A stretch of 64,000 nucleotides of DNA, taken from contig PABP01000032.1 of NCBI GenBank assembly GCA_002699585.1, positions 76,636 through 140,635 on the forward strand, given 5' to 3'. The notes below the pieces were generated by a model. The model saw nothing but the letters and a program-made list of their open reading frames with translations, was not told where the DNA came from and searched no databases. A program made the translations under genes and the position numbers. How positions within the stretch are numbered: the first letter of the stretch is position 1; each line of letters opens with the position of its first letter. Origin of the DNA: Anaerolineaceae bacterium. Its GTDB lineage: Bacteria; Chloroflexota; Anaerolineae; Aggregatilineales; Phototrophicaceae. Positions 17,828 through 35,264 of the stretch are shown here, piece after piece.

Positions 17828-18184
17828 TTACTCCTTATTCAGGGCTTCCTGAACCTCTTCCAATGTAGGATACGCACCCACTTTAATCACCTGACCGCGT
17901 ATTATGGTAATGGGTAGTGCGTCCATCTGTCTCTCGCGTACCAGCCGCATGACCTCTGCATTCTGCATGAAAGCATTGGGATGGCTGATCATCTGATAGC
18001 GTTCCAGTTCTGTTTCAGCATCTTTCAACTTGATGACCATCTCGTTGACATCCAGTAGCGTTTGGTCAAGTGTAGGGCCGCATAAACCAGTCGGACAGCA
18101 CATTGGCGGATCGAAAAACTCCACGTCACCAGACATTGGCTGGGAAGATGTTGGCGCATCAAAGAAAGTGACATTCCCATTCAT
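17828..18184 (-). CDS. arsD: ArsD arsenic metallochaperone
   Basis: A 118-residue cytosolic protein that in known systems carries As(III) via a Cys triad to ArsA. The essential triad is present as CC-x4-C (MCCPTGLCGP, Cys29, Cys30, Cys35). The body (LLDVNEMVIKLK..., FMQNAEVMRLVRERQMDALPITIIRGQVIKVGAYPTLEEV) is the thioredoxin-like ArsD fold. The N-terminus is unusual: residues 2-11 and 18-27 are an imperfect duplication (GNVTFFDAP and GDVEFFDPP), shifting the triad about 17 residues from its usual place. ATG 18184 follows AAAGG; an internal ATG (18136) would give the standard length but lacks a ribosome site. Its partner ArsA is truncated here, so any metal transfer must go elsewhere. Confidence 0.88.
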   Translation of the reverse strand: MNGNVTFFDAPTSSQPMSGDVEFFDPPMCCPTGLCGPTLDQTLLDVNEMVIKLKDAETELERYQMISHPNAFMQNAEVMRLVRERQMDALPITIIRGQVIKVGAYPTLEEVQEALNKE

Positions 18185-18250: not shown

Positions 18251-18622
18251 CTATCCCGAATTGTTTTCCATTGTTGCCAATAGATGGCGTAAGGCTGCAA
18301 CCTTCGTCGGATTCACCCGATGATGCACCCATACGCCATGTGATTCTGAAGTAATCAGCCCTGCATCGCGCAGCACTTTGAGGTGATGTGAAATGGTTGG
18401 CTGTGTTAATTCAAAGTGACGTTCAATGTCGCAGGCACAGGTTTCGCCCTTGCCCTGGCTGATAAGATCCAGGATCTGAACACGCACAGGATGACTGAGA
18501 GCTTTGAACATAGCCGCAAACGTTTCAGCTTCTTCCAACTGAACCCGTAGCTCCAGCGTGGGATCACAGGTTCTCCGATTTGCCCCAGTCTCAAGTTCCA
18601 GAATTTGTACATTTTGATTCAT
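18251..18622 (-). CDS. arsR: ArsR arsenite-responsive repressor
   Basis: A 123-residue winged-helix repressor heading the arsR-arsD-arsA run. The alpha3 metal site ETCACDIERHF (Cys62, Cys64) matches the ELCVCDL site of classic ArsR, and an extra Cys19 in the N-terminal tail may complete a three-thiol As(III) site. Recognition helix: ELTQPTISHHLKVLRDAGLI. The frame is open from a GTG at 18637, but that codon is part of the GAGGAAGG ribosome site, so ATG 18622 is the true start. Binding of As(III)/Sb(III) should release it from the operator region at 18651-18698, which lies between this operon and the diverging arsE-arsP run and may control both. Confidence 0.88.
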   Translation of the reverse strand: MNQNVQILELETGANRRTCDPTLELRVQLEEAETFAAMFKALSHPVRVQILDLISQGKGETCACDIERHFELTQPTISHHLKVLRDAGLITSESHGVWVHHRVNPTKVAALRHLLATMENNSG

Positions 18623-18650
18623 AAGTACCTTCCTCACCTATGTCAAAGAG

Positions 18651-19072: not shown

Positions 19073-20134
19073 ATGCAATTGGCACAACTCAAACCAACCC
19101 GCAAAGATCAGCGGCCATTCCTTATTGTTGCCGTTCTGGCAGTGCTCTGGTTCATTGCTTACAACAATCTGCAAGCAATTGCGGATTGGGTGACATACAC
19201 AGTACTGGACTTCAGCCGCGAAGATCAACTGGGCGAAGCACTCAATTTCTTCATCTATGACACGCCGAAGTTACTGCTGCTGCTTTCCGGCATGATTTTT
19301 CTCATCACACTGGTACAGACCTTCATCGACACCAATAAGGTGCGTGAAGTCGTCGAGAAGCGTGGCGAGGGAATCGGCAACCTGATGGCTTCCCTCTTTG
19401 GTGCGATTACGCCCTTCTGTTCCTGTTCGTCTGTGCCGTTGTTCATCGGTTTTGTGCAGGCAGGCATTCCGTTGGGGATCACGTTCTCATTCCTGATTAC
19501 CTCACCGATTATGAATGAAGTGGCATTTGTGCTGCTGCTGGGACTTTTCGGCTGGAAGGTAGCTCTATTGTATCTGGCATCGGGTATCACCATTGGCATT
19601 GTTGCCGGGCTGATTCTGGGACGGATGAATCTGGAAAACTACGTTGAAGATTTTGTCTATGCCATCAAGGCCAAAGGTGGTCAGCCAGGTGTTGCTGTTG
19701 CAATAGAAGAAAAACCGACCTGGGAAGAGCGCTTCCAGCAGGCAGGCGAGAGTACCCGCGAAATCGTCGGTAAAGTGTGGTTGTTTGTCATCATTGGTAT
19801 TGGAATCGGTGCGTTCATTCATGGATTTGTCCCGGAAGATGCGCTTTCAGATGTGATGGGAGCCGGGGCGTGGTGGTCTGTACCGGCGGCAGTGCTACTG
19901 GGTATTCCCCTTTATTCCAATGCCGCAGGCATCATCCCGATTGTGAGTGCGCTACTGGGCAAAGGCGCGGCACTGGGTACCGTTCTGGCGTTTATGATGT
20001 CGGTGGTTGCGCTCAGTTTACCGGAGATGATCATTCTGCGAAAAGTCCTGAAGCCGCGTTTGATCGCCATATTTGTCGGCGTAGTCGCTGTGAGCATCAT
20101 CCTCACCGGCTATCTGTTTAATCTGGTGATTTAA
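19073..20134 (+). CDS. arsP: ArsP-type organoarsenical permease (UPF0718/DUF318)
   Basis: A 353-residue inner-membrane permease with about eight to ten helices. The family signature TPFCSCSSVPLF near residues 113-124 carries the paired cysteines thought to bind trivalent arsenicals. A second half repeats the fold, ending LSLPEMIILRKVLKP. A cytosolic loop of about 45 residues (ENYVEDFVYAIKAKGG...) separates the two halves. Characterised ArsP proteins export methylated or aromatic As(III) such as MAs(III) and trivalent roxarsone. It follows arsE by 19 bp with AAAGGGAG upstream. Position next to ArsE/F/G supports organoarsenical handling, though related permeases also serve other soft metals. 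Confidence 0.85.
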   Translation: MQLAQLKPTRKDQRPFLIVAVLAVLWFIAYNNLQAIADWVTYTVLDFSREDQLGEALNFFIYDTPKLLLLLSGMIFLITLVQTFIDTNKVREVVEKRGEGIGNLMASLFGAITPFCSCSSVPLFIGFVQAGIPLGITFSFLITSPIMNEVAFVLLLGLFGWKVALLYLASGITIGIVAGLILGRMNLENYVEDFVYAIKAKGGQPGVAVAIEEKPTWEERFQQAGESTREIVGKVWLFVIIGIGIGAFIHGFVPEDALSDVMGAGAWWSVPAAVLLGIPLYSNAAGIIPIVSALLGKGAALGTVLAFMMSVVALSLPEMIILRKVLKPRLIAIFVGVVAVSIILTGYLFNLVI

Positions 20135-20149
20135 GCGAGGACGCATACG

Positions 20150-20623
20150 ATGAAAGCCAAACCCGTCATAACCCTAGCCTTGCTCGCTTTCGTTGCCCTC
20201 AGTGTTATCACTCTGGTTGTGAACCAACTTGAAGGCAATGCCGCGTCTGAAGCCAGCGATATAAGCGACCTTCAGACGTTGGAGGATCGACTTGTAGTTT
20301 ACTACTTCCTTGGAACTGCACGCTGTTATACATGCAGGCTCATTGAGTCGCATACCAGAGATATTGTCGAAGCGACATATGCCGATCAGTTGATGCGTGG
20401 GCAGATAGAGTTCAGGGTCATCAATGTCGAGACACGCGACACTGTGCATTTTATCGAGGATTATCGGCTTTCTTCGCCTTCTGTCGTACTTGCCCGATTT
20501 GCTAACAACGTACAGGCAGAATGGAAGAACCTTGATAGAGTCTGGCAGTTTGTCGGCTCTGAGTCCACATTCCGAACGTACATTCAGGATGAAATCACAG
20601 CGATGATGCAGGGCAGTCTCTAA
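20150..20623 (+). CDS. arsF: ArsF-like thioredoxin-fold protein
   Basis: A 157-residue protein anchored or exported through an N-terminal helix (PVITLALLAFVALSVITLVV). The outer domain has YYFLGTARCYTCRLIE with a CxxC pair (Cys59, Cys62), matching the YYF-x-G-x-x-R-C-x-x-C block of the family annotated as nitrophenyl-compound nitroreductase subunit ArsF. In arsEFG systems it is linked to reduction of nitro groups on aromatic arsenicals, although no flavin site is evident, so direct catalysis is doubtful and a thiol-relay role looks more natural. It starts 16 bp after arsP and its stop TAA overlaps the ATG of the next gene. Confidence 0.75.
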   Translation: MKAKPVITLALLAFVALSVITLVVNQLEGNAASEASDISDLQTLEDRLVVYYFLGTARCYTCRLIESHTRDIVEATYADQLMRGQIEFRVINVETRDTVHFIEDYRLSSPSVVLARFANNVQAEWKNLDRVWQFVGSESTFRTYIQDEITAMMQGSL

Positions 20624-21318
20624 TGGAAGATTGGACCGTTGCTTTAGTTTCCGCCTTTTGGTTCGGTGTATTGACATCGATCAGCCCATGCCCTCTGGCC
20701 ACAAATATCGCGGCAATCTCTTTTGTTGGCCGACGGGTGGATAACCCAAGACAGGTTCTCGTCGCTGGATTGCTCTACACTGGCGGGCGGATGCTTACCT
20801 ACATTGTACTGGGGACCGTGCTGGTCACCAGTCTGCTCTCTGTTCCATCCCTATCCTATGCTTTACAGAAGTACATGAACCTCGCACTGGGTCCGTTATT
20901 GATCCTGGTGGGCATGGTATTGATGGAACTTATCACGTTCCAGATCGGTGGATCAGGTATTAGCGAATCTATGCAGAAGCGTGTAGAGGGTTTGAATGTT
21001 TGGGGCGCAGGATTACTCGGTATCCTGTTTGCCCTTTCTTTCTGCCCAACCTCGGCGGCGCTTTTTTTCGGTAGTGTACTGCCACTCGCAGTGAAGTGGC
21101 AATCTGAGGTGATGCTACCCGCAATCTACGGTATTGCTACGGGCTTGCCGGTGGTCCTCTTCGCGGGATTGATCGCAGTCGGAGCCCAAAAGGTAGCGAA
21201 GGCATATGACCGTGTGGTGAGTTTTGAACGTTGGGCACGCTATATCACGGGAGGTCTTTTTATTCTCGTGGGTATCTACTACTGCCTTGTCTATATCTTC
21301 GGCATATCGCTTTTCTGA
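20623..21318 (+). CDS. arsG: ArsG-like permease (DsbD/CcdA-type)
   Basis: A 231-residue six-helix membrane protein of the CcdA/DsbD electron-transfer fold. Each half has a Cys-Pro motif: TSISPCPLATNIA (near residue 23) and LSFCPTSAALFFG (near 133), the pair that in CcdA carries electrons across the membrane. Proteins of this subtype beside ArsF are named ArsG, assigned to efflux of aminobenzylarsenicals, but the retained Cys pair also fits transport of reductant from cytosolic thioredoxin (the ArsE-like protein) to the exported ArsF-like protein. Overlap with arsF by one base shows tight coupling. Confidence 0.78.
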   Translation: MEDWTVALVSAFWFGVLTSISPCPLATNIAAISFVGRRVDNPRQVLVAGLLYTGGRMLTYIVLGTVLVTSLLSVPSLSYALQKYMNLALGPLLILVGMVLMELITFQIGGSGISESMQKRVEGLNVWGAGLLGILFALSFCPTSAALFFGSVLPLAVKWQSEVMLPAIYGIATGLPVVLFAGLIAVGAQKVAKAYDRVVSFERWARYITGGLFILVGIYYCLVYIFGISLF

Positions 21319-21368
21319 TTGTGCATGTGTCGTGACCATATCGTGATTTGCTGAGAAAGGAAAAGATC

Positions 21369-22121
21369 GTGTGGGAACATTCAGACTTAGAAGCTGTTCA
21401 GACACTCGCTAAACGGATGATGGCTGTCCTGGAACTGTCTGGCTCGCCTGTTGGGGTACGGTTGCTACATGAAGGCTCCGAACTGCCTGCGGGTGTCCGC
21501 GTGCTGAATCAGTACCGCTACTGTCAGGCACTCATGCTGGCACGGCGTGGAGAACACGTCTTGCTCGACGGGCATGGTATTGCCTGTCCGGCGGCGGCAG
21601 CAGCCTTTGGTTTCCGCCCGCTGCCGAAGGAACTGCAATCGGGCAGAGGCTTAGTCGGTTTTGGTATCGTCAAAGATCCCGTTGTCGGGCAGAAAATGTT
21701 TGAGTGGATGCCGCGCCTGGAATCCGGCTGGCTCAGGCAGCTTCATCTTTATCCACTCGATGAAGCGGAATATGAGCCTGATCTGGTAGTGGTAGAAGAT
21801 GAGGTAGAGAAACTAATGTGGATCGGGCTGGCTAATCTGAACGTCACTGGTGGTGAACGGATTGAGGCTTCGACGGCGATCCTGCAAGCTGCTTGTGTAG
21901 ACTCGACCATCATCCCTTATCAGGAACACCGGCTCAATATGAGTTATGGGTGTTATGGCTGCCGGGATGCGACCGATATTGGGCAGAATGAAACCGTACT
22001 GGGCTTCCCCGGCGATTTGCTGCCTGCAATTGGTGAACACCTTGAATATCTGGCAGAAAAAGCGATGCCCGTATCACGATCCAAACGAGCATTGGCTGGA
22101 CTTGAGAAACGCCAATCTTGA
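21369..22121 (+). CDS. DUF169 domain protein
   Basis: A 250-residue soluble protein of the DUF169 family, whose function is unknown. Recognisable blocks are SGSPVGVRLLHEG, the Cys-containing YCQALMLARRGE, GIACPAAAAAFGF, and a C-terminal YGCYGCRDATDIG with Cys-x2-Cys. The four or more conserved cysteines suggest a metal or Fe-S centre. The frame opens with a TTG at 21348, but the GTG at 21369 has AAAGGAAAAG in front and is taken as start. It lies between arsG and the ArsR-PIG-L fusion in a co-directional arsenic run, so an arsenic- or thiol-linked role is suggested only by position. Confidence 0.7.
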   Translation: MWEHSDLEAVQTLAKRMMAVLELSGSPVGVRLLHEGSELPAGVRVLNQYRYCQALMLARRGEHVLLDGHGIACPAAAAAFGFRPLPKELQSGRGLVGFGIVKDPVVGQKMFEWMPRLESGWLRQLHLYPLDEAEYEPDLVVVEDEVEKLMWIGLANLNVTGGERIEASTAILQAACVDSTIIPYQEHRLNMSYGCYGCRDATDIGQNETVLGFPGDLLPAIGEHLEYLAEKAMPVSRSKRALAGLEKRQS

Positions 22122-22200
22122 TAGTTGGTTGCAGTTTAGTGTGCCTACAATAGGCTAGCTCGTTATAAACAAGGTTTTTAGCGTAGCAGGTAAAAAACAG

Positions 22201-23241
22201 ATGCGCGATACAGCCTGTTGTGATCTAAATGACTTTTTGAAGGCAGTGGCAGATGATACGCGCCAACGCATTCTGTTTCTCTTGCGCAACCGAGAGATGA
22301 GTGTAAGTGAACTCGATACACACCTGGCTGTCAGCCAACCGACTGTCTCACACCATCTTGCCATCTTACGGCGCTCCCAGCTTGTCACTGCGCGGTATGA
22401 AGGACGCTGGGTTTATTACCGAATAAACCCTGACTGTGTTAAAGAGTGTAGTGATGAAATTCGGGTGCATTTCAAGAAACCCATCCATCAACAAAACATG
22501 GAACATAAGCAGCCTGAGATGATAAAACGACGAATGGTAGTGATACTGGCACATCCTGATGATGAGAGTTTTCCATTAGGCGGTACGCTGGCTAAATATG
22601 CAGCAGAGGGTGTTGAGATTACGCTGGTATGTGCGACAAAGGGTGAAGCGGGTATTCCTGATTCATCCAGAGAGGAAACGGCACGCTTACGTGAGCATGA
22701 ACTGCTCACGGCGGCTGATGTGCTTGGATTGTCGGATGTGCGTTTTCTGGGGTGGCTGGATAGCGAACTGGATAAAGCGGATGAAAAGATCGTGATTGGT
22801 CAACTTGTGGCTATCCTGTCAGAAATACAGCCGCAGGTGGTTATCACGTTCGGCGCAGATGGTATCTCCGGTCATCCGGATCATATTGCTGTCCATCAGT
22901 TGACAACCGCTGCGTTTAAAGAGTCTGGCGTGCGAGGGTTACTGTATTACATCGCACCATCTGAAGCCACACAACAGGGATGTGGTGTTCTGCCACCAAG
23001 GGCGATCACTGGAGGCCCGACTATTGGCATTGATGTAAGTCAGTATCTTGTCACAAAGGTGCGGGCGACGCAGTGTCACGCCAGCCAGAACCCACCTTTC
23101 AGCGGTGATCCTAAGACAGAGGCTGAGCATCTTGCCTGCCATGAATATTTCGTGCTGGCATTTCCAGTTTTGGAATCCGTTACCACACACGATTTGTTCG
23201 AACAGAAATTAGAGATGGAGGTTCATCATGAACGAGCCTAA
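22201..23241 (+). CDS. ArsR-type regulator fused to a PIG-L/LmbE deacetylase
   Basis: A 346-residue two-domain protein. Residues 1-95 are a winged helix-turn-helix of the ArsR family (DDTRQRILFLLRNREMSVSEL, SQPTVSHHLAILRRS, GRWVYYRI). Residues 108-346 are a PIG-L/LmbE zinc hydrolase with both metal motifs intact: AHPDDE (117-122) and GHPDH (224-228, then VH). Enzymes of this family remove acetyl from GlcNAc conjugates, including the MshB and BshB steps of mycothiol and bacillithiol synthesis. Cys6-Cys7 and Cys79/Cys83 flank the HTH and could bind As(III). The frame is continuous, and internal ATG codons at the domain junction have no good ribosome site, so a true fusion is favoured. It overlaps the next gene by 14 nt. 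Confidence 0.85.
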   Translation: MRDTACCDLNDFLKAVADDTRQRILFLLRNREMSVSELDTHLAVSQPTVSHHLAILRRSQLVTARYEGRWVYYRINPDCVKECSDEIRVHFKKPIHQQNMEHKQPEMIKRRMVVILAHPDDESFPLGGTLAKYAAEGVEITLVCATKGEAGIPDSSREETARLREHELLTAADVLGLSDVRFLGWLDSELDKADEKIVIGQLVAILSEIQPQVVITFGADGISGHPDHIAVHQLTTAAFKESGVRGLLYYIAPSEATQQGCGVLPPRAITGGPTIGIDVSQYLVTKVRATQCHASQNPPFSGDPKTEAEHLACHEYFVLAFPVLESVTTHDLFEQKLEMEVHHERA

Positions 23242-23575
23242 TGCAATGATCAAACCCTGGCACGGTGTTTCCCGTGAGGAAATCAACTGGAATCCAACCG
23301 TCGTTGCAGAGCGTTGTATCGGTTGCGGGTTATGTGTCACATCCTGCGGACGTAAGGTCTATCAGTTCGATTATGACAATAATGTCGCAGTCGTTGCCAA
23401 TCCGCTTCACTGTATGGTAGGTTGTTCAACCTGCGCCACAATCTGCCCACGGGAGGCAATTGAGTTTCCGTCATGTGGCTACATTCAACAGCTTATCCGG
23501 GAACGAAAAATCGTCAGGCAAAGCAAGGATATGCTGCGCGATCACCCTGATGATTACCGCACTGAACCTAAATAA
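23228..23575 (+). CDS. Ferredoxin-like protein with two 4Fe-4S motifs
   Basis: A 115-residue soluble protein. Two cluster-binding motifs are visible: CIGCGLCVTSC (near residue 31) and CMVGCSTCATICP (near 63), the first lacking the usual final Pro. Flanking tails (NEPNAMIKPWHGVSREEINWNP and a basic C-terminal IRERKIVRQSKD) are longer than in simple ferredoxins. Such proteins carry electrons to reductases; here the obvious candidates are the unknown DUF169 protein or a redox step on arsenicals. It overlaps the ArsR-PIG-L gene and precedes ACR3 by 33 bp, so it is made with the efflux system. Partner unknown. Confidence 0.8.
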   Translation: MNEPNAMIKPWHGVSREEINWNPTVVAERCIGCGLCVTSCGRKVYQFDYDNNVAVVANPLHCMVGCSTCATICPREAIEFPSCGYIQQLIRERKIVRQSKDMLRDHPDDYRTEPK

Positions 23576-23608: not shown

Positions 23609-24757
23609 ATGAGTTCTCAAACCACCAGCGCTTCAGCGCAAAGCCAGAACAACGTGTTTAGCAGGCTTTCTATACTAGATCGCTTTTTGCCCATCTGGAT
23701 TTTTGCGGCAATGGCATTGGGCATCGGTCTTGGTAATTTTTTCCCGGAGATTGGCCCGGCACTTGACTCTGTGAAACTGGATACCGTTTCGCTGCCGATA
23801 GCAATCGGCTTACTGTGGATGATGTATCCGGTTCTGGCAAAGGTCAAGTACGGGAAAATGCCCGAAATGGCTGCTAACTGGAAGATGTCAGGTACATCCT
23901 TGTTCCTCAACTGGATCGTTGGCCCGGCGTTGATGTTTGCGCTTGCATGGGTGCTGTTGCCGGATCACCCTGAATATCGAACCGGCTTGATTCTTGTCGG
24001 GCTGGCGCGTTGCATTGCGATGGTCTTAATCTGGAATATGCTGGCGTGTGGTGATAACGAGTATGCCGCAGTGCTGGTGGCGATCAACTCTGTATTTCAG
24101 ATCGTGATGTATACCGTCTTAGGCTACTTCTATCTGACGGTGGTACCAGGTTGGCTGGGAGGCTCGACTGTGGTGCTGGATGTCTCCATGTGGGAAATCG
24201 CCAAAAGTGTGCTGATCTTCCTGGGTATTCCGCTGGCAGCAGGCTTTCTGACACGGTTCATCCTCGTGCGACGGAAGGGCGAAGAATGGTACGAAACAAA
24301 ATTCGTGCCGCGTCTGTCGCCGACTGCCATCTGGGGATTGCTGTTCACGATTGTGATGATGTTCTCCCTGAAGGGTGAAGTCATCCTGGAACGACCAATG
24401 GACGTGGTGCGGATTGCGTTACCACTGGTTATTTACTTCTTTGTCATGTTTGGTGTCTCATTCACGCTGTCCTACTTGATGAAATTCCCCTACGCGGATA
24501 CAGCCACCATTTCCTTCACCGCTGCCGGGAACAACTTTGAGCTAGCGATTGCTGTAGCAATCGGTGTGTTTGGGCTGGCTTCCGGTGAAGCACTAGCAAC
24601 GGTGGTCGGGCCACTAATCGAGGTACCCGTGTTGATTGCACTAGTGTATCTCTCGCTCTGGTTAGGGAAGCGTCTCTATCCATCTGATCCATTGTGGCAA
24701 TCCAGGAGTCAATCTGTACATGAAACAGCACCCGAAATTGTCGGGGCATCTGATTAG
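23609..24757 (+). CDS. acr3: ACR3 arsenite efflux permease
   Basis: A 382-residue inner-membrane As(III) exporter with ten predicted helices. The hallmark helix with the essential cysteine reads GLARCIAMVLIWNMLACGD (Cys near residue 134), and the late conserved helix is FTAAGNNFELAIAVAIGVFG with the required Glu. ACR3 uses the proton-motive force and needs no ArsA. ATG follows AAAGGAG. It is preceded by the ferredoxin gene and followed by the DUF2180 gene within 14 bp. This is the only intact inorganic arsenite exporter in the window, so it should be the main effector of the island. Confidence 0.93.
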   Translation: MSSQTTSASAQSQNNVFSRLSILDRFLPIWIFAAMALGIGLGNFFPEIGPALDSVKLDTVSLPIAIGLLWMMYPVLAKVKYGKMPEMAANWKMSGTSLFLNWIVGPALMFALAWVLLPDHPEYRTGLILVGLARCIAMVLIWNMLACGDNEYAAVLVAINSVFQIVMYTVLGYFYLTVVPGWLGGSTVVLDVSMWEIAKSVLIFLGIPLAAGFLTRFILVRRKGEEWYETKFVPRLSPTAIWGLLFTIVMMFSLKGEVILERPMDVVRIALPLVIYFFVMFGVSFTLSYLMKFPYADTATISFTAAGNNFELAIAVAIGVFGLASGEALATVVGPLIEVPVLIALVYLSLWLGKRLYPSDPLWQSRSQSVHETAPEIVGASD

Positions 24758-26609: not shown

Positions 26610-26633
26610 TGTGTTCATGTAATGGGAGGCAAA

Positions 26634-27554
26634 ATGCGCTACCTGTGGTGTTTATTTCTGGTACTGGTTATCGCTGGGTGTAACAGTACACAAGCGCCAA
26701 CTTCTGAAGGCGTGTCCATTGATCTTGCCTCTCTTCAACCATTGCCGGTGCGTTATAACGAAGGCGTGGTTCCGCTACGAGTTTCGGTTGCGGCAGTCGT
26801 GTCGCCACGAGGTACAGCAGAAAGCTATCAGCTTTTGCTGAACTATTTGAGCGAGACTCTGGATCGCCCTGTTGAACTTGTGCAGCGGCGGACGTACCAG
26901 GAAACCAACGATCTTGTTGAAAGCGGTGAAGTTGATGTTGCCTTTGTCTGCACAAGTGCCTATATCACGGGTCATGATCAATTTGGTATGGAGCTCCTAG
27001 CGGGGCCGGAAGTCAGTGGTGAGTCTGTCTATTATTCGCTCCTGATCGTCCCATCAAACAGTTCAGCAGAAACACTACAGGATCTGCAAAACAAAGTATT
27101 CGCCTTTACCGATCCAATTTCCTATAGCGGGCGAGTTTATCCAACCTATCTTGTTCAACAACTAGGACATACTCCTGATTCTTTCTTCAGCCGCACATTC
27201 TTCACCTACAGTCATGATGAAGCTATCTACGCTGTTGCGGATGGGCTGGCTGACGGGGCCGCAGTCGATAGTCTGGTCTATGATTTTGCACTGGAACGAG
27301 ATGTCACACTGGCTGAACGTGTCCGGGTGATTCATCGTTCACCACCTTTCGGCATCCCGCCTGTAGTGGTTTCACCGAATGTGCGTCCTCAACAGCAGGC
27401 ACTTTTGCAGGAGGTTCTGCTGACAATGCACGAAACGCAACAAGGGCGAGAAGCACTACAAGCATTAGGGCTTGAGCGATTTATCCTGATAGAAGACAGC
27501 GCCTATGACAGCGCCCGACAAATCACCGAAATTGTAGGATCGCTAATACCATGA
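26634..27554 (+). CDS. PhnD-like periplasmic-binding lipoprotein, AioX/ArrX-type sensor component
   Basis: A lipoprotein of about 306 residues: lipobox VIAGC after a short hydrophobic signal, then a type-2 periplasmic-binding domain (RVSVAAVVSPRGTAESYQ, GEVDVAFVCTSAYITG, KVFAFTDPISYSGRVYPTY, DEAIYAVADGLADGAAVDS) of the phosphonate/phosphite PhnD family. Instead of an ABC transporter it is followed by a histidine kinase and response regulator, the AioXSR/ArrXSR/TtrS-type arrangement in which the binding protein senses an oxyanion and signals to the kinase. Cys near 110 (AFVCTSAY) could contact arsenite, as a Cys does in AioX. The frame opens at an ATG at 26622; ATG 26634 directly before the signal peptide has GGGAGG upstream and is preferred. 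Stop overlaps the kinase start. Confidence 0.8.
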   Translation: MRYLWCLFLVLVIAGCNSTQAPTSEGVSIDLASLQPLPVRYNEGVVPLRVSVAAVVSPRGTAESYQLLLNYLSETLDRPVELVQRRTYQETNDLVESGEVDVAFVCTSAYITGHDQFGMELLAGPEVSGESVYYSLLIVPSNSSAETLQDLQNKVFAFTDPISYSGRVYPTYLVQQLGHTPDSFFSRTFFTYSHDEAIYAVADGLADGAAVDSLVYDFALERDVTLAERVRVIHRSPPFGIPPVVVSPNVRPQQQALLQEVLLTMHETQQGREALQALGLERFILIEDSAYDSARQITEIVGSLIP

Positions 27555-29008
27555 ATCCATTCATTCCTCGTAAGTATCTTGACCATTTTTGGACGGTGGC
27601 TGGCGCAGTCAACATCAGGATCAAAATTATCGGGATTGTACTGGGTTTGGTTTTTTTGCTGGGGCTAGCGGTGACATGGCAGGTTCGCCAGTTGTTGTCT
27701 CAGGCGATGTATGCGCAGTTGTCCGAACAGGCGGTTGCTTTTACCCGTGATCTGGCTGCCAGAGCCGCTGACCCCATTCTGATTAATGATGTCTATGCCC
27801 TTCATCAACTGTTACAGGATACAAGAATTAATCACCCGAATGTTGTTTATGCCTTCGTTGTTGATCCTGACAACTACGTATTGGCTCACACTTTCAATGG
27901 TGGTTTTCCTGAAAATCTGTCAGATGCCAACAGTGCAACAGATGATGCCTACGAACATACCACTATCCTCAATACCAGCGAGGAACAAATCTGGGATACA
28001 GCCGTTCCAGTTTTTGAAGGACGGGCAGGAACAGCCCGATTGGGACTATCTGATGCCCAAGTGTTACAGACAATTGATGCTGTAACCGGCCAATTGCTTT
28101 TAACTACCGTGATGGTATCGGTCATTGGTATTTCAGCCGCCGTCTTTCTGACGTGGATATTGACGCGCCCGCTCCTTGATCTGGTTGATGCTGCTCAGGC
28201 GGTTGGGAATGGCAATTTTTCCTACCGCGTGACGCGATGGGCGGATGATGAAATTGGCAAACTAACCGACGCTTTTAACTCCATGATCGAAGCGTTAGGA
28301 AAAGCAGACGCGGAAAGGATTGAGCGTGAACAGTCCAGAGTACAATACGTGCATGGTGTCATTACTGCTCAGGAAGACGAACGGAAACGGATTGCCCGCG
28401 AGTTACATGACAGCACCAGTCAGAGTCTGACCTCTCTGATCATTGGTCTCAAGACCCTTGAAGACAACTGTCAACACTGCCGCAAACAGACACGTGTCGT
28501 CGAGCTGCGATCTATTGCTGGTCAGACACTGGATGACGTTCATACGCTGTCGGTGCAACTGCGCCCCAGTGTACTTGATGATCTTGGCTTACCTGAAGCA
28601 ATTCGTCGCCACATTGCTGACTATCGAAAGCGTTACCCAATTAACATTGATCTGGCAGTTACCGGTATGGACGGAATACGTCTGCCAACTGAGATTGAAA
28701 CTGCGCTTTACCGGATCGTACAAGAGGGGTTAACGAATATCATTCGCCATGCGGAAGCACATACGGCGAGTATCTTTATTGAATGCAGTACGGATAAAGT
28801 ACTGGTTGTCATTGAGGATGATGGTAAAGGCTTTGAGATAACGAATGTCCAACATCAGGATGGGCATCTGGGTCTTTACGGTATTCAGGAACGCGCTGAA
28901 CTTTTGGCTGGCGCACTGGAAATTGAATCCGAGCCTGGGCGAGGAACCAGCCTGTTTATTGAAATCCCGCTGCACACTGAAAGCGCTGAATTACAGGAAA
29001 ACAGATGA
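27551..29008 (+). CDS. NarX-type sensor histidine kinase
   Basis: A 485-residue membrane kinase. Helix 1 (about 25-45) and helix 2 (about 180-200) enclose an exported sensor domain of about 130 residues. A HAMP linker follows (TRPLLDLVDAAQAVGNG...), then the HisKA_3 dimerisation helix with the phospho-acceptor His in ERKRIARELHDSTSQ, and an HATPase domain with the N box (LTNIIRHAEAH) and G boxes (EDDGKGF, GHLGLYGI, GRGTSLFIEI). The ATG overlaps the lipoprotein stop and the TGA overlaps the response-regulator ATG, so the three are a translationally coupled unit. An oxyanion bound to the lipoprotein is the likely signal. Confidence 0.88.
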   Translation: MNPFIPRKYLDHFWTVAGAVNIRIKIIGIVLGLVFLLGLAVTWQVRQLLSQAMYAQLSEQAVAFTRDLAARAADPILINDVYALHQLLQDTRINHPNVVYAFVVDPDNYVLAHTFNGGFPENLSDANSATDDAYEHTTILNTSEEQIWDTAVPVFEGRAGTARLGLSDAQVLQTIDAVTGQLLLTTVMVSVIGISAAVFLTWILTRPLLDLVDAAQAVGNGNFSYRVTRWADDEIGKLTDAFNSMIEALGKADAERIEREQSRVQYVHGVITAQEDERKRIARELHDSTSQSLTSLIIGLKTLEDNCQHCRKQTRVVELRSIAGQTLDDVHTLSVQLRPSVLDDLGLPEAIRRHIADYRKRYPINIDLAVTGMDGIRLPTEIETALYRIVQEGLTNIIRHAEAHTASIFIECSTDKVLVVIEDDGKGFEITNVQHQDGHLGLYGIQERAELLAGALEIESEPGRGTSLFIEIPLHTESAELQENR

Positions 29009-29670
29009 ACACAATCAAACTACTTATTGCTGATGATCATATTGTACTGCGTTCTGGCCTGCGTATGTTGATTGATGCCCAGTCTGACATGGATGTGGTG
29101 GGGGAAGCTGACAACGGCAGCCAGGTTCTCGTTCTGGCGGAGTCCTTGCAACCGGATTTAATCCTGCTTGATCTCTCCATGCCGGGACTGGGTGGATTGG
29201 AAACACTGCCCTTGTTAAAAAAGGTTGCTCCGCAAACGTGCATCCTGATATTGACCATGCACGATGATGAAAGCTACTTGCGGCAGGCTCTGCGAGATGG
29301 TGCGTCTGGTTATGTTCTCAAGCGCGCAGCGGATACCGAGCTGCTTTCAGCTATTCGCTCGGTTATGCGTGGAGAGGTTTATGTGCATCCTTCGCTTACA
29401 CGCGCCCTGCTGGATAATATTTTGCCTGAATTGAGTGCGAACTCATCAAATCCCTGGGATAGCTTGAGCGAACGAGAGCGTGAGGTCTTGCTGCGAGTTG
29501 CGCGAGGATTCACATCTGCCCGGATTGCTGAACAACTCAATCTGAGTCCGAAAACGGTAGAGACCTATCGTGCACGGGGTATGGAAAAACTGGGATTGCG
29601 GTCGCGTGCCGCGCTTGTTCAACATGCGCTATCTCATGGCTTGCTCTCTAACGACACAAACCCTCGTTAA
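29005..29670 (+). CDS. NarL/LuxR-type response regulator
   Basis: A 221-residue regulator. The receiver domain has the acidic pair (IADDH), the phospho-acceptor Asp in LILLDLSMPGLGG (near residue 54), and the conserved Thr and Lys (LILTMHDDE, YVLKRA). The C-terminal LuxR-type helix-turn-helix reads LSEREREVLLRVARGFTSARIAEQLNLSPKTVETYRARGMEKLG. Overlap with the kinase by 4 nt defines a cognate pair. The most likely target is the Mo-enzyme operon immediately downstream, which is separated by a hairpin region (29671-29719) and so probably has its own activated promoter. Confidence 0.9.
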   Translation: MNTIKLLIADDHIVLRSGLRMLIDAQSDMDVVGEADNGSQVLVLAESLQPDLILLDLSMPGLGGLETLPLLKKVAPQTCILILTMHDDESYLRQALRDGASGYVLKRAADTELLSAIRSVMRGEVYVHPSLTRALLDNILPELSANSSNPWDSLSEREREVLLRVARGFTSARIAEQLNLSPKTVETYRARGMEKLGLRSRAALVQHALSHGLLSNDTNPR

Positions 29671-29719
29671 GCCCCCTGTGGGGGAATCCCCCACAAAATC
29701 CTACAAGCCTGCGGATTTT
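29671..29719 (+). terminator. Tandem and overlapping hairpins between regulator and Mo-enzyme operon
   Basis: Three stems are possible: CCCCC/GGGGG (29672-29684), TGTGGGGG/CCCCCACA (29677-29695), which excludes the first, and AAAATCC/GGATTTT (29695-29719) followed by only a short T run. The last could act as a weak terminator for the regulator transcript. The exclusive pair could form an attenuator. Confidence 0.45.
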
Positions 29720-29815
29720 TCCTGATACCTGACTTCCTTCCAACGGAATATGCTTTCCATAAACAGGCGCGGCACTGGTACCTGTGCGTTATTGCGACTG
29801 AAAGGAAAGGATCTT

Positions 29816-30751
29816 ATGAAGGATCAAAATGAAGTTGAACAAGCGTCTGATGTAACCAGACGCAATTTTTTGAAGGGTTTGATGGGTGGTGCAGGGGCCG
29901 CTGCCGCTGTTGCCGCGTTCGAGACTCTGGCAGATAACCCCGCCATTTTACTGGCTCAGGATGCTGCGACTGAACCAGCCAGCAGTGGATCGGTACTAAG
30001 CAGTGCGGGCGAAGGTGGCCCAGTTGATGTTTTGGAACGGATGCGTCTTGAATTACAGCGAGCGCTTCAGAAATCCTCGTTAGATCGTCGCTGGGTGATG
30101 GTCATCGACCTGCGCAAGTGTGTGGGTTGCCATGCTTGCACAATAAGTTGTGTTGCCGAGAACAAACTCCCCCCCGGCGTCGTTTATCGCCCAGTGATCG
30201 AAGAGGAATGGGGAATCTATCCCAATGTAGGGCGACGATTTGTACCGCGCCCCTGTATGCAGTGCGAGAATCCGCCCTGTGTGCCGGTCTGCCCGGTAGG
30301 GGCAACATATACCAATGAAGAAGGCATCGTCGAAATGAATTACGAACGGTGCATCGGCTGCCGGTATTGCATCACGGCCTGTCCTTATGGCGCTCGCGTA
30401 GCGGACTTTGGGTTTACCTATAATCAGGATATGCCGGAAGCCGATGGCTTAATCCTTGGGCAAGCAGGTGCAGACGACTACGAACGTGTCGCTAACTTCG
30501 AGTATGGCAAGTCCTATGAACGTGAGGGACGAGGCTCACCAGTTGGCAATGCACGTAAATGCCATTTCTGCCAGCATCGTGTGCTGGAAGGCGCACTTCC
30601 CGCCTGTGTAACGACCTGTATCGGACGTGCTACGTTATTCGGTGATGCGAATGACCCCGACAGCTTGGTCGCCGAGATGATCGCTCGTCCGAATGTGATG
30701 CGGCTTCGGGAAGAACTCGGAACCGAACCGCGCGTTTATTACCTGACATAG
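29816..30751 (+). CDS. Tat-exported 4Fe-4S electron-transfer subunit (TtrB/PsrB type)
   Basis: A 311-residue exported iron-sulfur protein. A Tat motif ([12 protein letters not shown], residues 14-25) precedes an Ala-rich hydrophobic core. Four Cys clusters follow: [45 protein letters not shown] and [21 protein letters not shown], together able to bind four cubane clusters as in TtrB, PsrB, PhsB and ArrB. The C-terminal [16 protein letters not shown] block is typical of this group. It transfers electrons from the NrfD-type quinol oxidase to the Mo subunit. ATG 29816 with AAAGGA upstream is preferred over ATG 29750. First of the three-gene B-C-A operon. Confidence 0.88.
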
Positions 30752-30760
30752 GAGGAAATC

Positions 30761-31975
30761 ATGGCACAGGCTGTAGCAACTTCTGACAGTATGGCGTCAG
30801 GCAGCAGCAGGAACTTCAAACTGCGTTGGACTGACATTTTTATAGTCCTGGGCATCATCATGCTAATCGTTGGTGCCAGTGGTATGGCGCAACGGTTAAC
30901 CCAGGGTTTAGCCCCTACCAATATCACCAGTTATGTCCCCTGGGGGCTGTGGGTTGGTTTTTATGATTATCTGGTCTGGTTGGAAGTCGGCAGTTTGCTC
31001 GTCTTCATTACGCTATTTTACCTGATTGGCTTTACAAAACTGAAGCCGATCAAACCCTTTGTCCTGTTTACAGGCTTTACCGTTGTGCTAATGGCCCTCA
31101 TCATCGTCCTGCTTGATCTGGGTCATCCAGAGCGCTTCTGGCATGTATTGCTCTATCCTGACTTTAGCTCGATGATTACATGGATGGTCTGGCTGCATTC
31201 AGCGTATCTGTTATTGCTGACAGTCGAGCTGGTACTTGTGTTGTCTGGCACTGAGCGATCTGAGAGTATTCTTAAGTTACTGGCTTATTTCAGTTTACCA
31301 ATGGGGCTGGCGCTGATTATCGTGAGTGGTTCAATCTTCGGCGTTATTGCTACCCGCCCCTTGTGGAACACAGCCAGCCTCCCGCTGATGTTTTTGATCT
31401 CATCGCTAGCAGCGGGTAGTGGATTGCTCACGCTGTTAGTCGTTTTGTTCTGGCCGGATAAGCAGTCCCCGGACTATCGTCAAATTATCCAGCGCCTTGC
31501 ACGGCTTACCAGTGTATTACTCGCCGGTGGTGTTTTTGCCGCAGGTGTAATCGGCTTCACCATGCTTTATCAGGGCAGTGGTAACCCTATTCGGGCAGAG
31601 GGCATCAACCTGATCCTCAGCGGTCCCTATGCCTGGAGTTTCTGGATTATCCATATCCTATTAGGTGTGCTGGTGCCACTGATCGTGATGATCGTGATGC
31701 CGCGTAACCCCTTATTGGTTGGTATTGCGGCCTTTCTAAGTACAGTAACGTTTGTCGCAGTCACCCTGAATGTCGTCATCCCTGTGCTGGTTACACCTGA
31801 TCTGGAGGGACTCGCGACTGCATTTGTAGATTCAAAACTCGACGTAAATTATGTGCCAAACCTCATGGAATGGCTGATGCTCGCCTTCATTTTCGGGCTT
31901 GGCAGCTTGATCTATGGTCTTGGTTTGCGCTTCCTGCCACTGCAACCTCGTAATGAGGAGGTAAATCATGGTTAA
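30761..31975 (+). CDS. NrfD/PsrC/TtrC-type membrane quinol oxidase subunit
   Basis: A 404-residue integral membrane protein with about nine or ten helices: WTDIFIVLGIIMLIVGASG, PWGLWVGFYDYLVWLEVGS, then LIIVLLDLGHPERFWHVLLYP, which is the conserved NrfD-family segment before the quinone site. It has no heme or Fe-S motifs. In the family it anchors the catalytic and iron-sulfur subunits and exchanges electrons with menaquinol/menaquinone on the outer face. It starts 10 bp after the B subunit gene (AGGAGG) and overlaps the A subunit gene by 8 nt, so stoichiometric expression is expected. Confidence 0.88.
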   Translation: MAQAVATSDSMASGSSRNFKLRWTDIFIVLGIIMLIVGASGMAQRLTQGLAPTNITSYVPWGLWVGFYDYLVWLEVGSLLVFITLFYLIGFTKLKPIKPFVLFTGFTVVLMALIIVLLDLGHPERFWHVLLYPDFSSMITWMVWLHSAYLLLLTVELVLVLSGTERSESILKLLAYFSLPMGLALIIVSGSIFGVIATRPLWNTASLPLMFLISSLAAGSGLLTLLVVLFWPDKQSPDYRQIIQRLARLTSVLLAGGVFAAGVIGFTMLYQGSGNPIRAEGINLILSGPYAWSFWIIHILLGVLVPLIVMIVMPRNPLLVGIAAFLSTVTFVAVTLNVVIPVLVTPDLEGLATAFVDSKLDVNYVPNLMEWLMLAFIFGLGSLIYGLGLRFLPLQPRNEEVNHG

Positions 31976-34900
31976 TGAATCGAATAAAGAATCCCAACCG
32001 GCGGGGTGCGGTTTGTCTCGTCGTGACTTCGTCAAGTTCAGCACAATTGCGGGTGGCACAACGGCGGCATTCCTGGGTGGTTTGCCAGGTTTCAGCCAGC
32101 TTGTCAAACTTCGCGCTCAGTCGAACGAGGGTAGTAACTTCGATTACACTCTGCTTGACCCGACAAATCAGCTCTATTCCGTATGTTTGCAATGCAATAC
32201 CGGTTGCGGTATCAAGGTTAAACTGCTGGATGGGGTTGCCGCCAAGATTGAGGGCAATCCATTCCACCCCATGACCATGTACCCGCACATCCCTTATGAA
32301 ACACCTGTCTCGGAGCTAGGAACTGTTGAAGGAGCGATTTGCCCGAAAGGCCAGGCAGGCATTCAATCAGTTTATGATCCGTATCGTTTGGCGAGTGTTC
32401 TAAAACGTAAACCCGGTACACGGCGTGGCGCAAACGAGTGGGAAACCATCTCCTTTGAGCAGGCGATTGAAGAAGTGGTCGAAGGTGGCGATTTGTTCGG
32501 TGAAGGACCAGTGCCCGGACTGCGTGAATCGTATGCGCTAACGGATAAAGCTGTCTCGACAGAGATGATTGCCGCCATCAAAGCCATTCAGGCAGAAAAA
32601 GATGCCGATGCAAAACTCGCGTTGGTTGAGGACTTCAAAGAGACCTTTGCCGATTATCTGGATGCCATGATTGACCCGGAACTTCCTGATCTTGGCTCAC
32701 GCAACAACCAGTTTGTGTTTGCCTGGGGTCGACTCAAGAATGCACGCAAGGATTTCATCTCGCGCTTTTTGAGTGCCTATGGGACGACGAATGCCCACGG
32801 GCATACGACAGTCTGCCAGGGTAGCCTGTACTTCACCGGCAAAGCAATGTCTGAGCAGTACATTGACGGCAAATGGACAGGCGGCTCGAAATTCTACTGG
32901 CAGGGTGATATTGGCAACAGCGAGTTTGTCCTCCTGGTGGGCGCATCACCGTTTGAAGCCAACTATGGACCGCCCCTGCGTACACCGCGCATCACGACCA
33001 ATTTAGCGAATGGCACGGCACGCATTGCAGTGGTTGACCCGCGTTTCTCCAAGACAGCCTCCAAAGCTTGGAAGTGGTTACCGGGCAAGCCGGGCACAGA
33101 AGCGGCTCTTGCGCTGGCGATGATTCAGTGGATTATCGACAATGAGCGCTATGATGGCCTGTATCTTTCTGCAGCAAATGCTGCCGCTGCCAACGCTATC
33201 GGGGAACCGACCTGGACCGAAGCAAGCTGGCTGGTAAAACTGGATGAAGACGGTGTTCCTGGCAATTTTCTGCGCGCCAGCGAGATAGGACTTCGCGAAA
33301 AAGAAGAACGCCCGCTTTCAACCGATCCAGAAAAGACCTATGAGTTCGACTATTTTGTTGCACTCGTTGATGGTGAGCCGGTCGCGGTTGATCCCTATGC
33401 GAGCGAAGCTGCCGATGCGGTTCGTGGCGATCTGTTGGTCGATACTAAGATCGAAGGTATCCCGGTGAAGTCCGGTTTACAGATCATCTCGGATTCCGCA
33501 CACGAATACACCATGCAGGAATGGGCGGATCTGTGCGGCCTTCAACTGGATGACATCATCGAGGTTGCCGCAGAATTCACCAGTCATGGCAAGCGGGCTG
33601 TCGCCGACATCCATCGGGGGGTCAGCCAGCACACCAACGGCTTCTACAACGTCCTGGCATGGTACACACTCAACGCGCTGATCGGCAACTACGACTATGC
33701 CGGTGGTCTTATCAAAGCCAGCACCTATAAAGCCGACGGTAGTAAAGCCGGGCAACCATTCAATCTAAAAGAAGGTCGTACCGGGATTTCGCTGTTTGGT
33801 ACCAGCATCATCCGGCATGGCGAAAAATATGAGAATCACACGCTGTTCCTACGCGATGGTTATCCTGCGCCGCGTCAGTGGTACTATCTGGCGAGCGATG
33901 TCTATCAGGAAATCATTCCGTCAATTGGCGATGCCTATCCTTATCCCGTAAAAGCATTGATGCTGTACATGGGATCGCCAGTCTACTCACTACCCGCTGG
34001 TCACACGAATATTGAAACGCTGTCTGATCCGGCTAAACTGCCGTTGTTTATCGCCATTGATCCGTTCATCGGTGAGACCAGCATGTATGCGGATTACATC
34101 TTCCCCGACACGATGTACCTGGAACGGTGGGAGTTTCACGGCAGTCACCCCAGTGTTTCGTTCAAGATCGAAGCCGTGCGTAATCCGGTCATCGCGCCGA
34201 TGGTCCCCGATGTGACTGTTTTTGGTCAGCAGACACCGCTATCACTGGAAGCGGTTCTGATGGGTATCGCCGAACGCCTCGAGTTGGGCAGTTTTGGTGA
34301 AGGTGCATTCGGATCATACGGCGATCTGGTTCATCCCGATGAATTCTACCTGAAGATGGTCGCCAACCTCGCTTTTGGTGAGAAGGAAGACGGCTCAGGT
34401 GCTGTACCAGATGCCGATGAAGAGGAAATTCGCATCTTCCTGGAAGGTCATCGCCATCTCCCGGATAGTGTATTCAATGCAGAACGCTGGCAGGCTATCG
34501 TCAGCGACCTGTGGCCCAAAGTTGTCTATGTGATGAACCGGGGTGGCCGCTTCGAGAGCTTCAGCAAAGGCTATACCCAACGTATCTTCCCGGAACAGAG
34601 CGCCAATTACTTTGGGGTCGATACCGTACAGGCTTCGCATCCGTTTGGGACGATGCTCAACCTGTATCAGGAGAAAACCTACGGCACCCGCAGCCCAATG
34701 ACTGGCCAACGACTGACCGGTTATGCCCGCTACTTCCCGGCCGGACGCTCCGTGTTGGATGAAGCGGTTGATGACAGTGCAGATGGCTATGATCTGAACC
34801 TGATTACCTATAAGGTTATCTCACAAACCAAGTCACGCACAGCTTCTAACTACTGGCTATTGGCTGTCCTGCCGGAGAATACGCTGGAGATGCATCCCGA

Positions 34901-35264
34901 TGATGCTGAGGTACGTGGACTACAAGATGGCGATATGGTGCGGGTCAGCTCTGCTTCAAATACTGCAGGCGAGTGGGACCTAGCTAACGGAACCACCGTT
35001 CCGATGGTCGGCAAGCTCCGCACGACGCAGGGGATTCGTCCTGGTGTGGTCGCATTCGGACTTGGCTTCGGTCACTGGTCATATGGTGGTGTCGATTTCA
35101 CGATTGACGGCACAACCATTCCCGGTGATGCACGTCGTGTTCGGGGCTTCCATGCCAATGCCGCCATGCGTGTTGATCCGTATCTTGGCAATACAACGCT
35201 GGTTGACCCGGTAGGCGGTAGTGCTGTGTTCTACGACACAATGGTCAAGATCGAAAAAGCCTGA
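31968..35264 (+). CDS. Tat-exported molybdopterin oxidoreductase, TtrA/ArrA-type
   Basis: A 1098-residue catalytic subunit of the DMSO-reductase superfamily. Tat signal SRRDFVKFSTIAGG lies near residues 18-31. The N-terminal cluster is C-x2-C-x3-C-x44-C (CLQCNTGCGIK ... AICPKG). The probable Mo ligand is Cys near residue 283 (HGHTTVCQGSLYF), preceded by the GGDLFGEGPVPGLRE and DLGSRNNQFVFAWGR blocks found in tetrathionate and arsenate reductases. The C-terminal cofactor domain ends with GVVAFGLGFGHWSYGG. At about 1100 residues it is closer in size to TtrA than to ArrA (about 850), and B-C-A gene order is that of ttrBCA. Position inside an arsenic island and an AioX-like sensor argue for an arsenic oxyanion. 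Substrate is therefore open: tetrathionate, arsenate/arsenite or another oxyanion. Confidence 0.85.
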   Translation: MVNESNKESQPAGCGLSRRDFVKFSTIAGGTTAAFLGGLPGFSQLVKLRAQSNEGSNFDYTLLDPTNQLYSVCLQCNTGCGIKVKLLDGVAAKIEGNPFHPMTMYPHIPYETPVSELGTVEGAICPKGQAGIQSVYDPYRLASVLKRKPGTRRGANEWETISFEQAIEEVVEGGDLFGEGPVPGLRESYALTDKAVSTEMIAAIKAIQAEKDADAKLALVEDFKETFADYLDAMIDPELPDLGSRNNQFVFAWGRLKNARKDFISRFLSAYGTTNAHGHTTVCQGSLYFTGKAMSEQYIDGKWTGGSKFYWQGDIGNSEFVLLVGASPFEANYGPPLRTPRITTNLANGTARIAVVDPRFSKTASKAWKWLPGKPGTEAALALAMIQWIIDNERYDGLYLSAANAAAANAIGEPTWTEASWLVKLDEDGVPGNFLRASEIGLREKEERPLSTDPEKTYEFDYFVALVDGEPVAVDPYASEAADAVRGDLLVDTKIEGIPVKSGLQIISDSAHEYTMQEWADLCGLQLDDIIEVAAEFTSHGKRAVADIHRGVSQHTNGFYNVLAWYTLNALIGNYDYAGGLIKASTYKADGSKAGQPFNLKEGRTGISLFGTSIIRHGEKYENHTLFLRDGYPAPRQWYYLASDVYQEIIPSIGDAYPYPVKALMLYMGSPVYSLPAGHTNIETLSDPAKLPLFIAIDPFIGETSMYADYIFPDTMYLERWEFHGSHPSVSFKIEAVRNPVIAPMVPDVTVFGQQTPLSLEAVLMGIAERLELGSFGEGAFGSYGDLVHPDEFYLKMVANLAFGEKEDGSGAVPDADEEEIRIFLEGHRHLPDSVFNAERWQAIVSDLWPKVVYVMNRGGRFESFSKGYTQRIFPEQSANYFGVDTVQASHPFGTMLNLYQEKTYGTRSPMTGQRLTGYARYFPAGRSVLDEAVDDSADGYDLNLITYKVISQTKSRTASNYWLLAVLPENTLEMHPDDAEVRGLQDGDMVRVSSASNTAGEWDLANGTTVPMVGKLRTTQGIRPGVVAFGLGFGHWSYGGVDFTIDGTTIPGDARRVRGFHANAAMRVDPYLGNTTLVDPVGGSAVFYDTMVKIEKA

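Follow-up and report, generated by a model that had tools for sequence, protein, structure and literature searches.

Fusions between an ArsR repressor and an enzyme have been reported in the form of ArsR-ArsC proteins from Leptospirillum ferriphilum, Microbacterium, and Sinorhizobium (PMC6205960). Furthermore, the As(III)-responsive sites of ArsR proteins consist of three cysteines, placed in helix 3 (type 1) or represented by a C-terminal pair plus one residue (type 2) or by an N-terminal pair plus one (type 3), whereas the MAs(III) sites consist of two (PMC11868830).

The gene described here, found in a window of 64,000 nucleotides (the whole stretch of DNA analysed) of a Chloroflexota genome, joins an ArsR domain to a PIG-L amidohydrolase. 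As far as we found, ArsR-enzyme fusions are otherwise known only with established ars enzymes. No report of PIG-L or LmbE proteins together with ArsR, arsenite, or an ars operon was found in the open-access literature, and reviews of ars genes mention no such deacetylase.

Structure of the Fused Gene

The region 22201-23241 of the forward strand is a single stop-free frame, running from an ATG at 22201, preceded by a modest Shine-Dalgarno (SD) sequence (-4.7 kcal/mol), to a stop at 23241 and coding for 346 amino acids. Its first 100 residues (22201..22500) represent an ArsR/SmtB domain, whose complete winged helix spans about residues 1-95; the Pfam HTH_5 profile matches residues 18-63 with 55.3 bits (curated cut-off 22), and the NCBIfam model HTH_metalloreg (NF033788) gives 93.8 bits (cut-off 55). 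Residues 107-346 (22519..23238) form a PIG-L domain that is full-length compared to the stand-alone orthologues, with a match to PF02585 of 121.1 bits (cut-off 28.2) over residues 113-238, covering profile positions 1-128 of 129. Both matches are far beyond chance. The two metal motifs, AHPDDE (residues 117-122; 22549..22566) and GHPDH (residues 224-228; 22870..22884), are present; the former and the HPDH part of the latter are invariant in the PIG-L subfamily described below. These data confirm the original prediction of a continuous frame harboring a complete ArsR and a complete PIG-L domain with both metal motifs, and place the protein in the ArsR/SmtB family by its winged helix and in the PIG-L/LmbE family by its profile match, its AHPDD and HPDH motifs, and its fold.

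In the AlphaFold model, the PIG-L part has pLDDT values mostly of 90-98, and the closest solved structure is that of MshB (1q74; Z 27.2, rmsd 2.5 over 223 residues). The ArsR part was modelled with low confidence (33-67), few ArsR sequences having been aligned, and its helix/strand order is as expected. The cysteines of the protein are located at positions 6, 7, 79, 83, 144, 261, 292, and 313.

The two halves meet neatly: the ArsR part is about as long as its closest stand-alone relatives (L130, 118 aa; L131, 111 aa counted from the likely Met), and residue 107 aligns with the start Met of the stand-alone PIG-L genes. The junction contains three in-frame ATG codons (M100, M107, and M112; 22498..22536, + strand), none of which has a ribosome-binding site above background, their anti-SD energies being +2.9, -3.3, and -3.2 kcal/mol, respectively, against a background mean of -2.7. 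Among the separate orthologues, four out of the five tested have strong SD sequences (-7.3 to -10.9 kcal/mol), and that of the fifth (L037) is weak. The lack of a ribosome site at the internal ATGs, together with the mostly strong sites of the separate genes, favors the idea that the fused gene would yield one polypeptide.

Organization of the Arsenic Island

On the forward strand, the island embeds, in this order, genes for a thioredoxin-like protein, an ArsP-type permease, ArsF, ArsG, a DUF169 protein, the fusion, a ferredoxin, and Acr3, followed on the 3' side by a small zinc protein, a VKOR-thioredoxin, and a CMD protein; arsD (17828-18184) and a second arsR (18251-18637) lie on the strand opposite to the fusion. 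The permease gene (19073..20134) matches PF03773 (ArsP_1) with 255 bits, and arsF and arsG (20150..21318), genes of aromatic arsenical reduction/efflux, score above the cut-offs of NF040494 and NF040495. The DUF169 gene (21348..22121), directly upstream of the fusion, occurs in other PIG-L ars islands, too (L045). Downstream, the gene for the ferredoxin-like 4Fe-4S protein (23228..23575), recurrent in ars islands, shares its first 14 bases with the 3' end of the fusion, and it precedes acr3, coding for the arsenite efflux permease (23609..24757; TIGR00832, 441.6 bits, cut-off 282.8). Such neighbours (ArsP_1, ArsF/ArsG, Acr3, ArsD, and the second ArsR) bear out the placement of the fusion within an arsenic operon. 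The 79 bases of the intergenic leader (22122..22200, + strand), the presumed site of any operator or promoter, revealed no sigma-70 consensus in a promoter scan and no clear operator, as the inverted-repeat search gave 6-base repeats only.

The same type of ferredoxin-like gene was found in 19 of the 396 Anaerolineae class genomes, often by acr3, permeases, or DUF169. Directly downstream of the ars genes, a respiratory-type cluster (26622-35264) codes for a PhnD-like binding protein, a sensor kinase, a response regulator, an Fe-S protein, NrfD, and a molybdopterin enzyme of 1098 residues, the best match of which is TtrA (441 bits, below the cut-off); its ArrA score is 118 bits.

Distribution of the Fusion

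A second ArsR-PIG-L frame was not retrieved from partly overlapping samples taken at the level of the family (98 genomes), the class (396), and the phylum (400), from the best 80 PIG-L loci of 84,980 species genomes, a scan confined to the 80 nearest PIG-L relatives, so that independent fusions may exist in more distant PIG-L families, or from 72,556 plasmid and 50,697 phage records; the phage and IMG/VR searches gave weak relatives, all unfused. Two candidates were discarded: in a Deinococcus plasmid match (H1, 84% coverage), the N-terminal match falls in an adjacent ABC permease gene, and in a 439-aa open frame of G487, the extension overlaps an upstream permease in a different frame. The nearest PIG-L homologue (G018, 76%) is encoded on its own, as a protein of 231 aa, and the 10-kb contig that carries it shows no ars neighbours. 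Hence, of the two findings that would have spoken against the original prediction, one was made, all homologues found being separate genes; the other was not, since no frame break is visible in 22201-23241 and the junction ATGs lack a ribosome-binding site. The fused frame is seen in a single assembly, and it is best read as a young, lineage-specific joining of two complete proteins, i.e., an ArsR/SmtB repressor and an MshB/BshB-like PIG-L zinc amidohydrolase.

The PIG-L Subfamily and Its Association with ars Genes

In the phylogenetic tree, the PIG-L subfamily that includes the fused copy forms one group with support 99/99, and beyond the metal motifs, its members conserve a PSEATQQGCG-like segment. 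Under fixed counting rules, 11 out of 14 non-redundant members of the subfamily, the copy of the window not included, have an ars gene no more than 5 kb away, whereas among the other PIG-L loci this holds for 3 out of 89 (Fisher p=6e-10, a value that overstates independence, the members being related, and obtained with several short contigs). The arrangements comprise PIGL-ArsR-ArsD-ArsA (L040), ArsR-PIGL with an ATGA overlap (L042), ArsR-PIGL-ArsP (L044, L045, and L052), PIGL-Fdx followed by an SBF/Acr3-like permease (L041), ArsD-ArsA-PIGL-acr3 (L054), and, in another class, ArsP-PIGL-ArsD-ArsA (L170). Thus, the ars setting of the PIG-L part extends statistically to other Chloroflexota, and this association is a more general and better-supported finding than the fusion itself. 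The recurrence of separate PIG-L genes in ars clusters suggests an unrecognised accessory step of arsenic defence.

The arsR genes touching the separate pigL genes code for another sequence type, with SCNGWL near helix 3, than the fused ArsR; for this reason, the same PIG-L enzyme seems, judging from these sequences, to have been joined to ArsR control more than once. Moreover, the same-family genomes G002 and G004 harbor an arsR-Trx-permease-Fdx-acr3 operon without PIG-L, which implies that the PIG-L module is dispensable or optional. A tie to aromatic arsenicals through ArsF/ArsG was also considered and dropped, because ArsG is not recurrent beside other PIG-L genes. At locus L047 (8127-8876), a PIG-L gene of the ars-linked type has its C-terminal half swapped for a cysteine-rich stretch resembling the tail of another enzyme; it is a chimera or an assembly join.

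Relatives of the ArsR Domain

The closest relatives of the fused ArsR are stand-alone proteins in G130 (63%) and G284 (55%), whose genes adjoin those for CO dehydrogenase and a HypB-type GTPase rather than ars genes; next come the ArsRs encoded beside arsM. The closest-relative loci, L130 (1492-1848) and L131 (1444-1887, minus strand), encode a CCD N-terminus and a CVAECC stretch. According to the alignment, Cys83 is present in 23 of 23 ArsRs and Cys84 in 22 of 23, being replaced by Ser in the fused protein; the Cys6-Cys7 pair and Cys79 are common only to L130 and L131. The fused ArsR has no cysteine in helix 3, and thus no type-1 CxC site, and possesses the N-terminal pair; on this pattern, Cys6, Cys7, Cys79, and Cys83 could represent an arsenic site.

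In many Anaerolineae (L132-L152), an arsR gene is located directly beside arsM; several of these ArsRs carry three consecutive cysteines (CCC) ahead of helix 3, along with a conserved CC pair close to helix 5.

Alternative Explanations

The frame might be the product of a frameshift, that is, an overlapping arsR-pigL pair (ATGA) joined by one extra base, through an assembly error or a recent mutation. Indeed, the +1 frame of the ArsR tail stays open up to a TGA (22520-22522) that overlaps the ATG of M107, the same arrangement as that of arsR and pigL in L042, so that one inserted base would suffice for the fusion; one genome alone is known to harbor the fusion. However, chance alone often produces an ATGA at a start codon, the adjacent genes are intact against profiles, and the ribosome-site pattern of the junction and of the separate orthologues points the other way. 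Furthermore, the frame-0 tail resembles in length and hydrophilic character those of the stand-alone L130 and L131. On balance, a frameshift origin appears unlikely. As regards the signal, the ArsR half may be blind to arsenic or respond to nickel, CO, or redox, the fusion hitchhiking in the island: its nearest relatives lie beside CODH and HypB-type genes, Cys84 has been lost, and helix 3 lacks the CxC site. On the other hand, Cys83 and the Cys6-Cys7 pair are kept, the wider ArsR group adjoins arsM, and the fusion gene overlaps the Fdx-acr3 segment; we hold this reading to be rather unlikely.

Concerning the enzyme, it was proposed that the PIG-L part produces an amine precursor for mycothiol or bacillithiol, so that arsenic sensing and thiol synthesis would be linked through the fusion. 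MshB is the best fold match and BshB2 gives the highest NCBIfam score; yet the fused protein reaches 109.9 of 195.25 and 77.9 of 182.5 bits for the BshB-type equivalog models TIGR04000 and TIGR04001, and 90.5 of 224.35 and 77 of 277.15 bits for the MshB/Mca models TIGR03445 and TIGR03446. No subfamily member tested approached the BshB1, BshB2, MshB, or Mca cut-offs (85-115 bits for BshB2, cut-off 195; 63-95 for MshB, 224; 60-79 for Mca, 277). As for the partner genes, BshC was absent from all 14 host genomes (the three control genomes being positive), and neither BshA nor MshC exceeded its cut-off in any of the 14; judging from score and length, the MshC-model matches of the hosts are mostly cysteinyl-tRNA synthetase-like, including that of the own genome (241 bits, 493 aa), with intermediate matches in G364, G222, and G240. 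The GCS2 glutathione enzyme is absent in the own genome and present in relatives. The fused protein thus falls outside the BshB and MshB/Mca groups as delimited by equivalog cut-off and partner genes. Such low scores and missing partners make the synthesis of a known GlcN thiol by the subfamily unlikely, so the proposed link to protective thiols is not supported, and its coupling to arsenic sensing in this fusion appears highly improbable, although an undescribed GlcN-based thiol or another conjugate may yet be involved. The mycothiol-conjugate amidase Mca is itself a PIG-L member, and the PIG-L genes are linked to efflux permeases, not to biosynthetic genes; in accordance with this, the enzyme might act in an Mca-like manner, cleaving an arsenic or organoarsenical conjugate for exit via ArsP, ArsG, or Acr3. 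Nevertheless, the Mca scores of the members tested are far below the cut-off, no carrier thiol was found, and ArsG does not recur beside other PIG-L genes, and we hold this role to be rather unlikely.

A Chloroflexota genome (L158, G364:C3:738287-739423) codes for a 420-aa MshC-like protein with 391 bits (cut-off 485), and G364 harbors a second, lower-scoring MshC-like copy of the CysRS kind.

Discussion

Taken as a whole, the best explanation, to which we assign a probability of about 0.55, is a fusion that belongs to an autorepressed ars segment and supplies it with an accessory amidohydrolase. The ArsR half would bind as a dimer upstream of its own gene and repress the fusion-ferredoxin-acr3 segment; trivalent arsenic, once bound to its cysteines, would lift the repression, and the attached enzyme would be co-produced with the efflux pump. 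The enzyme, in turn, might remove an N-acyl group by hydrolysis, probably the N-acetyl of an amino sugar, from a small molecule linked to arsenic stress. Several data count against this explanation: the fusion occurs in one assembly, and the nearest orthologue (G018) is stand-alone, with no ars neighbours on its 10-kb contig and with a weak SD sequence itself; the leader revealed neither promoter nor clear operator, and PIG-L is absent from the same-family operon. The Cys84-to-Ser replacement and the position of the two closest ArsR relatives outside ars settings also weigh against it.

A stronger version, in which arsenic on the ArsR half both derepresses the operon and switches the amidohydrolase, acting on an undescribed amino-sugar thiol or arsenic conjugate, would make the protein a one-component sensor-enzyme; we consider it improbable. 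If it were true, the PIG-L subfamily would represent a new ars enzyme of Chloroflexota. More generally, both the fusion and the repeated occurrence of unfused copies near ars genes suggest that, in this phylum, the PIG-L amidohydrolase gene has an accessory role in arsenic defence. Since the hosts have no recognisable bacillithiol or mycothiol pathway, the substrate of this enzyme might bring to light a conjugate, a thiol, or a detoxification step that is new, and the enzyme, being small and soluble, is amenable to assay.

Comparison with Known Systems

The PIG-L half shares its fold and metal motifs with MshB, BshB, and Mca, MshB being the nearest solved structure; unlike them, it scores under all the equivalog cut-offs, is located in ars islands, has the subfamily-specific PSEATQQGCG segment, and belongs to a group whose host genomes lack the partner genes. 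The ArsR half resembles the ArsRs beside arsM and the MAs(III)-selective SpArsR (PMC11868830) in having Cys83 at the conserved C-terminal CC pair, but it differs from them in the Ser at the second position of the pair, in the extra Cys6-Cys7 and Cys79, and in the attached enzyme. As in ArsR-ArsC, an ArsR repressor is joined to an enzyme that belongs to its own ars operon, and at the gene level, an N-terminal ArsR and a whole C-terminal enzyme share one frame within such an operon. In ArsR-ArsC, however, this enzyme is arsenate reductase, which is established among the ars enzymes, whereas here it is a PIG-L protein, unmentioned as an ars protein in PMC6205960. By analogy with this precedent, the fusion is best classed with the ArsR-enzyme kind, as a variant specific to its lineage.
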